From a virus, in IMG/VR virus record IMGVR_UViG_3300047323_000240, positions 1 to 44,085 of that record: a stretch of 44,085 nt of DNA, one strand, 5' to 3'. The translations under genes and the position numbers were made by a program. This document shows positions 3,499 through 10,673 of the stretch, piece by piece. Position 1 is the first letter of the stretch, and every line of letters begins with the position of its first letter. The notes beneath the pieces were generated by a model. That model saw only the letters and a list, made by a program, of their open reading frames with translations. It had not been told where the DNA came from and did no database searches.

Positions 3499-4356
3499 TT
3501 AAAATTCAAATTCAATTTGATTGGAAAAGACTTCGCAGGACTCAGAGCAGCTGCCAGTGTCCAGTTTCTTGGCTCGGATCATTCGTTCGAACAAATCCCC
3601 ATAGTCCTGTTCCGCATACATTTTCGCGATACCATCCAATGACAGGTGTCCGCGATACATGACCTCCTTTGGTGTCGCCCGATGCCCATCCCTGACATGC
3701 TTTCCGGTTACGCAGTCCTGAAAAAAAAGCTTCATACCCGGCTCATCTTTCGTCGCTAGGCCAAGCTTGTGCGTAGATTTTTTGATGCAGAAAATGCAGT
3801 TGCCGAGGTGCTCGGCTATCTGAAGATCGAAGGGTTGCTGCTTCCACCAATCGAGTACGTCCTGTTTCTCAAAGTCGGACATTTCAGCCAGAAACCGGAT
3901 GCCATCTTTTTTGGCCAGCCGGCGCGGTTCGTCTGCCCTGATTCCAAGCCACGTGGTGTAATTCCCTTTGCCGAATGTGTCCTCGCAATACTTCCTGAAC
4001 GGCTGCAGCTTCATACGGTCCGTGCAGAAAGCGCCGCCGATATATGGGGTTCCGTACTTCTTGACCATATCCATGAATGGCTTCATGGCAGGCATTTGGG
4101 TCTGAATGTCCTTTGGCTCCCAAACCGTGTAGCCGTTGCCTTCACCCAGCTCTGGGTTGATATCGACCTGAAGGCAGACAAGGGGGATACCCCAGAATTT
4201 CACCACCTCGCGCACAAACCGGTACGTCATTGGGTGTTCTGCTCCGGTGTCCATGAAGATGTAGTGAACATCTTCCCCGGCCTTCCTGCGCTGCTCCATG
4301 AGATAAACGAGATAGGCTGACGTCCTGCCGCCTGAGAAACTAACGACATGAGTCAT
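3499..4356 (-). CDS. PAPS reductase-like PP-loop ATPase
   Basis: 285 residues. The N-terminus has the PP-loop SGGRTS (residues 8-13) of the PAPS reductase/ATP-pyrophosphatase superfamily, followed by FMDTGAEHPMTY, the usual second motif. Cys pairs occur in CIFC and near the C-terminus in CSESC and could bind a metal or act in redox. Phage members are usually annotated as PAPS reductase, but sulfate assimilation is not established for them. Nucleotide or nucleic-acid thiolation (DndC/TtcA relatives) is an alternative. The ATG follows AAGGAG. It is the last large gene of the recombination operon. Confidence 0.85.
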   Translation of the reverse strand: MTHVVSFSGGRTSAYLVYLMEQRRKAGEDVHYIFMDTGAEHPMTYRFVREVVKFWGIPLVCLQVDINPELGEGNGYTVWEPKDIQTQMPAMKPFMDMVKKYGTPYIGGAFCTDRMKLQPFRKYCEDTFGKGNYTTWLGIRADEPRRLAKKDGIRFLAEMSDFEKQDVLDWWKQQPFDLQIAEHLGNCIFCIKKSTHKLGLATKDEPGMKLFFQDCVTGKHVRDGHRATPKEVMYRGHLSLDGIAKMYAEQDYGDLFERMIRAKKLDTGSCSESCEVFSNQIEFEF

Positions 4357-7710: not shown

Positions 7711-7950
7711 TTATTCGTTAAACGCTTCGATTATTTCATCGAGACATCGGTCAGTGTCGACGTCCATTCCGTCAGCACGTTGAAGAACATCGCGCACCTC
7801 ATCAACAGTCAAATTGAGTGCGGTAAGAAACTCCACGACCGCTGATGTCACAGCTCTGTATTCCCGCTCCTGCAAGCATCCTGCGAATGAACCAGCTACT
7901 GCATCCTGCAGCTTTTGCTTAACGTCGCCGGGGTAATCCGTGTTGATCAT
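7711..7950 (-). CDS. Hypothetical early protein
   Basis: 79 residues, acidic and helical (ends DTDRCLDEIIEAFNE). No family recognised. Terminators flank it on both sides in the leftward operon, so its level should depend on N-type antitermination. Confidence 0.55.
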   Translation of the reverse strand: MINTDYPGDVKQKLQDAVAGSFAGCLQEREYRAVTSAVVEFLTALNLTVDEVRDVLQRADGMDVDTDRCLDEIIEAFNE

Positions 7951-8609: not shown

Positions 8610-8870
8610 TTAGATAAGTGGGATCGACTTGCCGCGCATTTTCTGTCGGGCGTTGGTTATCTGCCCGTATGGGTTATTCACCTTCCGGTACTCAGGATCC
8701 TCGCGAGTCACAAACTCAGGATCAGCCTTAACGCGCCAGTTCGGTGCTGTAACTGCTCTCAGAACCCGGTCAGTGCAGCCAGTCACTGATGTATTGCGCT
8801 CAGCTGCACGTTGAGCCCTGCGGCGATTTCTGGCGTTATCAGAGGCCAGATAGGTCATTACGATTGTCAT
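8610..8870 (-). CDS. N: N-like transcription antiterminator (arginine-rich motif)
   Basis: 86 residues. The start MTIVMTY followed by NARNRRRAQRAAERN (residues 12-26) is the arginine-rich RNA-binding motif of lambdoid N proteins. P22 N has a similar start and motif. The rest is weakly ordered, as expected for N. It is the first gene after pL, downstream of a boxA and boxB hairpin, with a strong GGAGGTAAGT start site. It should bind boxB RNA and make RNA polymerase ignore the terminators in both early operons. The call rests on the motif plus location. Sequence identity to known N proteins is low. Confidence 0.8.
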   Translation of the reverse strand: MTIVMTYLASDNARNRRRAQRAAERNTSVTGCTDRVLRAVTAPNWRVKADPEFVTREDPEYRKVNNPYGQITNARQKMRGKSIPLI

Positions 8871-9032: not shown

Positions 9033-9077
9033 TTCCCGCATTTCGGCGGGAACAAACCCCATCAATGTTAAAGAGCA
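9033..9077 (-). promoter_or_regulatory. nutL: boxA and boxB for N antitermination
   Basis: Minus strand: boxA TGCTCTTTAACA (9066-9077), identical to the rRNA-operon boxA. After 13 bases comes boxB, TTCCCGC-CGAAAT-GCGGGAA (9033-9052), a perfect 7-base stem. The loop CGAAAT and its closing C-G pair also occur in nutR. Located between pL and N. Confidence 0.85.
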
Positions 9078-9117
9078 TCGGCTTCCTGCCGGTCAGTGCG
9101 TCCTGCTGATGGGATGA

Positions 9118-9146
9118 ATAATACATATCGTACTGAATGCGGTCAA
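9118..9146 (-). promoter_or_regulatory. pL early leftward promoter
   Basis: TTGACC, 17-base spacer, TATTAT on the minus strand. It overlaps two of the three left operator repeats, so repressor binding would block it. Confidence 0.8.
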
Positions 9147-9190
9147 TACAAAATGTACTGTAAATTATCGAATTAAAACGATATGTATGA
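9120..9190. promoter_or_regulatory. Left operator region, three repressor sites
   Basis: Three related 15-base repeats at 9120-9134 (AATACATATCGTACT), 9145-9159 (AATACAAAATGTACT) and 9176-9190 (weaker, opposite orientation). They match the repeats between cI and cro. Partly palindromic, as expected for dimer binding by CI and Cro. Confidence 0.75.
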
Positions 9191-9221
9191 TTTTGATGGG
9201 GTTTTATTTTCTAAAGGCAAT

Positions 9222-9246
9222 AAAAAACCCGCTCAAGGCGGGTTTA
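9222..9246 (-). terminator. Terminator of the cI transcript
   Basis: AAACCCGC / GCGGGTTT stem with a CTTGA loop, running into T6 on the minus strand, just past cI. Confidence 0.8.
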
Positions 9247-9263
9247 TAGGTGGCGAGGGTAGG

Positions 9264-9926
9264 TTACAAACCTTCCCATTTCGCCTCAATGACGACGCCG
9301 ATGATTCGACAGTTGCCATTTATAGAGATCATGTTGTAGGAGGGATTCAGCGGTTTAAGGTACTTATTACCCGCATCAACAATGTAGCGCTTGAAAGTCG
9401 CTTCATTATCGGAGTCTAATTTGGCAACCACCAGGCGGCCATTGGTTGCCTCTATACTCGGATCAACCAAGATAATCATCCCTTCAGGGATACTGAGTCC
9501 AGAGGGGGATGTCATTGAGTCGCCCCTAACTTCCAGCCAGAATGATTTCTCATCTGCATTGGCAGTCGTCTCGGGCCACTTGTCAATCTCATTAATTGAA
9601 TAAGGCTCAATAGCCTCTGCCCATTGGCCTGCGCTTACCCAGCTTATCAAGGGATATCTTTTTGCTTCGATATGCGGCCTAGGCTTAACAGCGTTACCCT
9701 GTCCTTCATCGGGCCAGTTAACCGTTCCATCTGCATTTAAAACCAACTCCTTTAGGCCAATCACTTTCATGATTGAAGCTATCTCTTCAACGCTTGGTTG
9801 CCTACGCCCATTTAGCCAGTGCCCTATTGCGCCTTGAGTTTTGCCAATAGCTTCCGCGAGGCGATCCTGGGTAATCCCCGCCTCTTTCATTTTGGATTTA
9901 GCTAGTTCGTTCCACGTCTTTTTCAT
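9264..9926 (-). CDS. cI: CI-type prophage repressor, LexA-like (S24 peptidase)
   Basis: 220 residues from the ATG at 9926. The track start 14 residues upstream lies in the operator and is rejected. Residues 17-42 form a helix-turn-helix (TQDRLAEAIGKTQGAIGHWL). The C-terminal S24 domain has an Ala99-Gly100 self-cleavage site (SAGQW), Ser137 (GDSM) and Lys179 (TFKRY). It should keep the prophage silent and be destroyed with RecA help under SOS stress. Divergent from cro, with operator sites on both sides of the gene. Confidence 0.95.
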   Translation of the reverse strand: MKKTWNELAKSKMKEAGITQDRLAEAIGKTQGAIGHWLNGRRQPSVEEIASIMKVIGLKELVLNADGTVNWPDEGQGNAVKPRPHIEAKRYPLISWVSAGQWAEAIEPYSINEIDKWPETTANADEKSFWLEVRGDSMTSPSGLSIPEGMIILVDPSIEATNGRLVVAKLDSDNEATFKRYIVDAGNKYLKPLNPSYNMISINGNCRIIGVVIEAKWEGL

Positions 9927-9932
9927 CCACCG

Positions 9933-9961
9933 ATTATTACGGAGTGTATTAACTGTGACAA
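9933..9961 (-). promoter_or_regulatory. pRM maintenance promoter for cI
   Basis: TTGTCA, 17 bases, AATAAT (or 16 bases, TAATAA) on the minus strand. The predicted start is at or within a base or two of the cI ATG, so the maintenance mRNA may be leaderless, as in lambda. One operator site covers the -10. Confidence 0.55.
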
Positions 9962-10010
9962 CGCACAAAGTGTATTAATCCTCTTGCTTTATTTAAGTAC
10001 GAAATGTATT
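9936..10010. promoter_or_regulatory. Right operator region, three repressor sites
   Basis: Repeats at 9936-9950, 9962-9976 and 9996-10010, all sharing AATACA on the minus strand. The last, AATACATTTCGTACT, is closest to the left-operator consensus and overlaps the pR -10. The first overlaps the pRM -10. Confidence 0.75.
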
Positions 10011-10012
10011 AT
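9984..10012 (+). promoter_or_regulatory. pR early rightward promoter
   Basis: TTGCTT, 17-base spacer, TATTAT ahead of cro. The strongest right-operator repeat overlaps the -10 hexamer. The same -10 sequence and spacing occur in pL. Confidence 0.75.
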
Positions 10013-10040
10013 TCAGCAATTACCCAACATGGAGAACCGT

Positions 10041-10256
10041 ATGAGCAACTTACGGAAGTGCCGGGAGGCAATGAAGCTTTCCCAGTCCGCTCTAGCGGAC
10101 ATCGTTGGTTGCACTCAGGGAGCTATTGGTCATTGGGAGTCAGGTCGCCGAAGTCCAGATCTGAAAACATGCCGCCAGCTCGTTGATGCCCTCAACGGAT
10201 TAGGTGCTGAGGTTGGTCTGGATGATGTCTTCCCTCCGGAACTAAACGCAGCATAA
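10041..10256 (+). CDS. cro: Cro-like repressor
   Basis: 71 residues from the ATG at 10041, chosen because GGAG lies seven bases upstream. In-frame starts at 9984 and 10029 are less suitable because pR lies over the first. Residues about 12-35 are a helix-turn-helix (LSQSALADIVGCTQGAIGHW) nearly identical in its recognition part to that of CI (KTQGAIGHW). That agrees with both proteins binding the same operators. First gene of the pR operon. Confidence 0.9.
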   Translation: MSNLRKCREAMKLSQSALADIVGCTQGAIGHWESGRRSPDLKTCRQLVDALNGLGAEVGLDDVFPPELNAA

Positions 10257-10263
10257 GCACCAC

Positions 10264-10307
10264 CGCTCTTTAAAACTCTGAAGCCGCTCCCACCGAAATG
10301 TCGGAGC
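10264..10307 (+). promoter_or_regulatory. nutR: boxA and boxB for N antitermination
   Basis: boxA CGCTCTTTAAAA (10264-10275), ten bases, then boxB GCTCCCAC-CGAAAT-GTCGGAGC (10286-10307), an 8-base stem with one C-C mismatch. The CGAAAT loop is identical to nutL. Located just after cro, as in lambda. Confidence 0.85.
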
Positions 10308-10370: not shown

Positions 10371-10673
10371 ATGATGGAAATTGCAACCTATCGCAAAAAA
10401 GCAAGAGAGATTGAAAGCCAGTTACTGAACAAACTGGCTGAACGTGGACAGGGAACATTAGCGAAGGTACTTGAGCTGGACGATGCAGCTGTAAGCCGAA
10501 TGAAGAGACCATCAGGAAAGCAGCGTCACAGCTTCTTCCAGTTGATGAGCCTGGCAATGGCTTATCTGGATGTGGTGTCGCCGGAATCGGAAGTGGCGAA
10601 AAGTCTGTTGCGGATAGAGCAGCTACTGACAAAAGAAAAAGCCCCGAGCTGCGCGAACAGCTTCGAGGCCTGA
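10371..10673 (+). CDS. cII: CII-like transcription activator
   Basis: 100 residues. It resembles lambda CII: an N-terminal helix with ALRIESALLNK-like text (KAREIESQLLNKLAERG), an HTH (TLAKVLELDDAAVSRMKR), then a helical C-terminus. It should activate cI, int and antisense-Q promoters during lysogeny establishment. TTGC-N6-TTGC sites are present between cro and cII and inside Q. AAGGA lies seven bases before the first of two adjacent Met codons. The 3' end is covered by an antisense RNA. Confidence 0.88.
   Translation: MMEIATYRKKAREIESQLLNKLAERGQGTLAKVLELDDAAVSRMKRPSGKQRHSFFQLMSLAMAYLDVVSPESEVAKSLLRIEQLLTKEKAPSCANSFEA

Follow-up and report, generated by a model that had tools for sequence, protein, structure and literature searches.

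In phage lambda, the arginine-rich motif (ARM) of the N protein binds boxB RNA, NusA joins N, and the tail of N enters RNA polymerase; N is expected to be disordered in the absence of RNA. In the lambda boxB, the loop is closed by a U-A pair, and one base is extruded. Lambda N/boxB and P22 gp24/boxB both have five-base loops with one extruded base, and their ARMs read AQTRRRERR and AKTRRHERRR, respectively; in the P22 GACAA loop, one base is looped out (PMC12550061). Phage phi21 has an AKSRYKARR ARM and a CUAACC hexaloop (PDB 1NYB), in which UAAC folds in a GNRA-like manner and stands on a C.C pair (PMC12550061). The first-pass annotation of the DNA analyzed here was right about the five-base lambda and P22 loops and left out this six-base loop of phi21.

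Phage HK620 (NC_002730) is annotated with a putative nutL and a putative nutR, and both have a C[CGAAAU]G loop, in the boxBs TCCCGC[CGAAAT]GCGGGA and TTCCCGC[CGAAAT]GCGGGAA. Its N protein is annotated as "similar to Bacteriophages H19B and 21 N protein." A literature search, with older key papers outside its reach, found no biochemical or structural study of the HK620-type N/boxB pair.

Early region, nut sites, and N protein

We analyzed a 44,085-nucleotide stretch of the IMG/VR virus record IMGVR_UViG_3300047323_000240 ("the window"). The region of interest has the lambdoid order N, nutL, pL, cI, pR, cro, nutR, cII. Its closest relatives in this region are Erwinia phage vB_EhrS_49 (98.8% identical in the nutL stretch and 98.3% in the cII stretch) and Pantoea phage PA-1. 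The features are as follows.

8610-8870, minus: N antitermination protein, 86 aa, first gene of the pL operon (phrog_271, Erwinia phage relatives, place after nutL)
8613-8648, minus: lambda-N-like C-terminal tail RQKMRGKSIPLI (aligns with the end of lambda N in PDB 6gov)
8793-8840, minus: ARM of N, residues 11-26, DNARNRRRAQRAAERN, HK620 type (alignment of 28 distinct ARMs of the same shape)
9052-9033, minus: nutL boxB, TTCCCGC[CGAAAT]GCGGGAA (sequence reading and ViennaRNA folding)
9077-9069, minus: nutL boxA, TGCTCTTTA (sequence reading)
9118-9146, minus: putative pL, TTGACC-17-TATTAT (consensus scan, 10/12 matches)
9264-9926, minus: cI-like repressor (phrog_4, E 8e-56)
9984-10012, plus: putative pR, TTGCTT-17-TATTAT (read by eye; absent from the consensus scan list)
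10041-10256, plus: Cro-like repressor (phrog_3, E 2e-11)
10264-10272, plus: nutR boxA, CGCTCTTTA (sequence reading)
10286-10307, plus: nutR boxB, GCTCCcAC[CGAAAT]GTcGGAGC, with one C.C mismatch (sequence reading and folding)
10371-10673, plus: cII-like activator (phrog_191, E 4e-18)

The first-pass annotation had placed a boxA and a stem-loop at nutL and at nutR, with an identical C-CGAAAT-G on different stems, and we found both sites there. C[CGAAAU]G tops the two hairpins, while the stems below it, the spacers, and the flanks are unlike. The nutL site lies about 35 to 40 nt downstream of the pL promoter match and is followed by the N start codon after 163 nt, and nutR lies between cro and cII. 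The pL call was argued from position, since promoter matches in the region are not commoner than in shuffled sequence. An Rfam scan of 7 to 13 kb of the window gave nothing but sub-threshold chance hits.

Folding with ViennaRNA put the CGAAAU register at the energy minimum for both boxBs. The nutL stem is perfect (-13.3 kcal/mol for the 22-mer); the nutR hairpin and loop stood as described (minimum free energy -9.1), but the annotation had not mentioned that the third pair under the loop is a C.C mismatch. An alternative nutR hairpin, CCGA/AAUG/UCGG, has a worse energy (-5.7 versus -9.1) and was also ruled out by relatives that swap an A-U pair for G-C in the CGAAAU register. The window holds SSSSCCGAAATGSSSS once, versus 0.01 expected, and nutR falls outside this strict pattern. 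In nutR sites of the Erwinia/Pantoea type (10286-10307 in the window; also loci L006, L104, and L142), C.C or C.A stands at the third pair, the 5' base being C in every case; the nutL stem there is fully paired. The kept 5' C would fit an ARM lying along the 5' strand.

The arginine-rich protein at 8610-8870, proposed earlier as an N-like first gene of pL, matches phrog_271, "anti-termination protein N-like" (E 1.6e-7), and is the first plausible gene past nutL. It has the class ARM shape [N/T]A[R/K]NRRRx[R/K]R with one deviation, a Q for R/K at the lambda R10 position, where nearly all other class members have R or K. Its tail matches the lambda-N pattern RQKxxGKSIPLI; in a PDB sequence search, the sole match was the lambda N tail (6gov), which was weak (overall E 3.1). 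The same search returned no relative of HK620 N, and a Pfam search with the window N gave no match. Elsewhere in the left operon, a small protein at 7711-7950 on the minus strand matches the anti-restriction family phrog_14587 (E 1e-26).

HK620, along with CUS-3, HK140, IME10, ECP1, and mEpX2, resembles the window in boxB loops, ARM, boxA, and layout. The HK620 ARM, DNARNRRRARRQAQRE, is nearly equal to that of the window and sits on an unrelated C terminus; HK620 N ends in AAGYRKSKQLTAR, whereas the window N ends in KSIPLI, and the HK620 nutR stem is fully paired where the window has its C.C mismatch. Phages vB_EhrS_49 and PA-1 share the loops, the ARM, and the nutR type with its third-pair mismatch, but differ from the window in the C-terminal residues of N and in the lambda R10 position, where the window N has Q. 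Lambda and P22 resemble it in N/nut architecture, a GNRA-like loop core, and a lambda-type tail; phi21 resembles it in having a six-base loop that is the same in both nut sites and is probably a tetraloop on a noncanonical pair. We found in the window neither the GAARA pentaloop of the lambda boxB class, nor the GACAA pentaloop with RRHERRR ARM of the P22 class, nor the CUAAC-type loop with AKSRY ARM of the phi21 class.

ARM type and boxB loop across N genes

Related N proteins were compared with their boxB loops, a check that the first-pass annotation had proposed. We collected N genes solely by protein similarity, using lambda, phi21, ST64T, ES18, and HK620 as references, classed each ARM by sequence, and looked for boxB loops upstream of N. 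Among the N genes with a classifiable ARM and a recognized nutL loop, the ARM type agreed with the loop in 252 of 252: the HK620-type ARM came with CGAAAU (121/121), the P22 type with GACAA (83/83), the phi21 type with CUAAC (46/46), and the lambda type with GAARA (2/2). Many near relatives stand behind the 252/252, with 19, 17, 8, and 1 distinct N termini in the four classes; the four loop motifs and the ARM patterns were defined after viewing the first table, so that unlisted loops count as unrecognized and not as contradictions. Ten further N genes had no recognized nutL loop. Where both loops were recognized, nutL and nutR agreed, except in one record with an extra GACAA match beside CGAAAU. 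Relatives with a different ARM have a different loop in both nut sites.

In 26 seeming exceptions, an AGTTC/AATTC hairpin upstream of HK620-type N genes was a picking artefact, as all 26 also have GCCGAAATGC upstream. One locus with an HK620-type ARM and a lambda-type nutR fits phage mEp213 (PV340538), in which two N genes lie on the minus strand (458-730 and 1883-2215). One N is of lambda type and has nut sites of lambda type; the other is of HK620 type, and ahead of it, near 1101, stands only the 3' half of a broken CGAAAT boxB.

Other ARM types carry other loops, such as GATACA and CGCTT. Loci L011 and L024 have GATACA in nutL and nutR with the ARM NSRERRAQAYR, a possible further boxB class. 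At loci L003 (3072 and 797) and L010 (3831 and 271), CGCTT (Erwinia phage Midgardsormr38) and GATAC/GTTTC, with ARMs of their own, may mark additional classes. Locus L015 (N at 4001-4300) has CTAAC loops in both nut sites, at 3722 (plus) and 1290 (minus). Its ARM, AKDNAKNRYRARRAAKRE, one of the 28 aligned, is HK620-like except that the residue at the lambda R7 position is Y and not R; phi21 N (RYKARR) likewise pairs a Y-bearing ARM with a CTAAC-type loop. This single case only suggests that Y versus R at this position matters for the loop.

HK620-type ARMs occur with tails ending in KSKQLTAR, KSIPLI, KSIPAYYD, GSKPLI, and DATHITK, and a phi21 N query matched many N genes only from residue 34 on, at 95 to 98%, with an HK620-type ARM. 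Among N genes with at least 90% identity to phi21 N over the last 60 residues, those with an HK620-type ARM and a recognized loop have CGAAAU (39/39), whereas those with the phi21 ARM have CUAAC (2/2). By this sequence comparison, the loop tracks the ARM and not the tail. In another class, phage L and P22 gp24 have the N-terminal 75 residues in common, apparently identical boxB sites, and different C termini, and are interchangeable (PMC8022706), which agrees with a loop that follows the ARM. The epsilon34 authors took a divergent N terminus to mean a novel boxB specificity (PMC2629481). At L159, L161, L163 to L167, L182, and other loci, a detached open reading frame ending in LKDRHNLYYRKPRSEMGVTCVGRQKMKLGSKPLI, an N tail without an ARM, lies about 0.4 to 1 kb downstream of an HK620-type N with another tail; it looks like a trace of tail exchange.

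CGAAAU nut sites recur in phages of Erwinia, Pantoea, and E. coli. With a 91-base nutL query, 28 phage records matched, among them HK620, CUS-3, HK140, HK630, IME10, mEpX2, and PA-1, and HK620-like nutL DNA is present in 498 of 5,426 complete E. coli genomes. An IMG/VR scan for boxA plus GCCGAAATGC returned at least 119 stretches. Among the scan matches listed, at least 95 have boxA, a good CGAAAU stem, and the ARM; at least 14 have a good stem in a sequence that ends before N; and at least 10, with a poor stem and without N, match by chance.

Stem covariation and predicted loop fold

In an alignment of 14 different CGAAAU boxB sequences, chosen by hand, the loop and two C-G pairs, one of which closes it, are invariant; four stem pairs show two-sided changes, and 89% of cells are paired. 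The covariation score was 0.345, versus 0.203 in shuffles, and none of 500 shuffles scored as high. By analogy with phi21 CUAACC, in which UAAC stands on C.C, CGAAAU is probably a GAAA (GNRA) tetraloop over a noncanonical C.U pair, with no extruded base.

Proposed specificity of the HK620-type module

The window very probably has an antitermination module of the lambdoid N/nut kind that belongs to the HK620 specificity class. Besides the ARM and loop, this assignment draws on the layout, the N family match, the nutL/nutR agreement, the stem covariation, and the phi21 and P22 loop structures; conversely, at least 95 of the listed scan loci with boxA and a good CGAAAU stem have the ARM, and those without it (at least 14) break off ahead of N. 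We counted against it the nutR C.C mismatch, the Q at the lambda R10 position, and the many close relatives compared. The earlier proposal that the shared loop points to protein recognition gained support, as the loop and the ARM of N go together. A separate specificity from those of lambda and P22, also proposed, is well supported by comparison, based on the 252/252 agreement and the 39 natural tail swaps; it is neither new nor special to this phage, as HK620 and many others already have this loop with this ARM, and we do not claim the class itself as new.

A shared loop could instead reflect common ancestry or local duplication, since the two nut sites of a phage could be duplicates of each other and many of the loci are related. 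We consider this very improbable, as stems, spacers, and flanks differ between the two sites where the loop does not, relatives with other ARMs have another loop in both sites, and the stems covary. Chance hairpins without function are scarcely credible: such elements are short, and the scan did list chance matches, but here both sites lie in their expected positions, the strict pattern is rarely expected in the window, and conservation across Erwinia, Pantoea, and E. coli phages and covariation contradict chance. An unlikely but weightier alternative is an N/nut system with no separate specificity, in which lambda-type N would read the CGAAAU boxB equally well because both loops are GNRA folds. 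The lambda loop GAAAA and the window GAAA do have a common GNRA core, and the ARM shape A-x-x-RRR-x-x-R occurs in lambda (AQTRRRERR) as it does here. Yet the lambda U-A closing pair and extruded base are absent here, and the lambda-type ARM was never paired with CGAAAU in a set that holds only two lambda-type loci.

In the HK620-class reading, RNA polymerase leaving pL or pR would transcribe boxA and boxB, and boxA would load NusB/S10. The ARM of N would fold onto boxB and recognize the CGAAAU loop as well as the upper stem, the latter mainly by its 5' strand (CC[A/G]C). Together with NusA, N would then make the polymerase terminator resistant via the lambda-like tail, and both early operons would be expressed as a result. 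More tentatively, and with somewhat less than even confidence, we propose a fourth recognition mode for the HK620-type ARM and its CGAAAU boxB: an arginine-rich helix would recognize a simple GAAA tetraloop that sits on a C.U pair. This mode would be orthogonal to those of lambda, P22, and phi21, and R versus Y at the lambda R7 position would help switch N between GAAA-type and UAAC-type loops.

For this phage alone, the module suggests ordinary lambdoid early regulation. For the family, four ARM types and four loops at 252 loci without contradiction provide a clean, naturally occurring data set on the code of RNA-peptide recognition, in which the natural tail swaps tell RNA recognition apart from contact with the polymerase. 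Should it prove orthogonal, the CGAAAU/ARM pair would be another RNA tether beside lambda-N/boxB.
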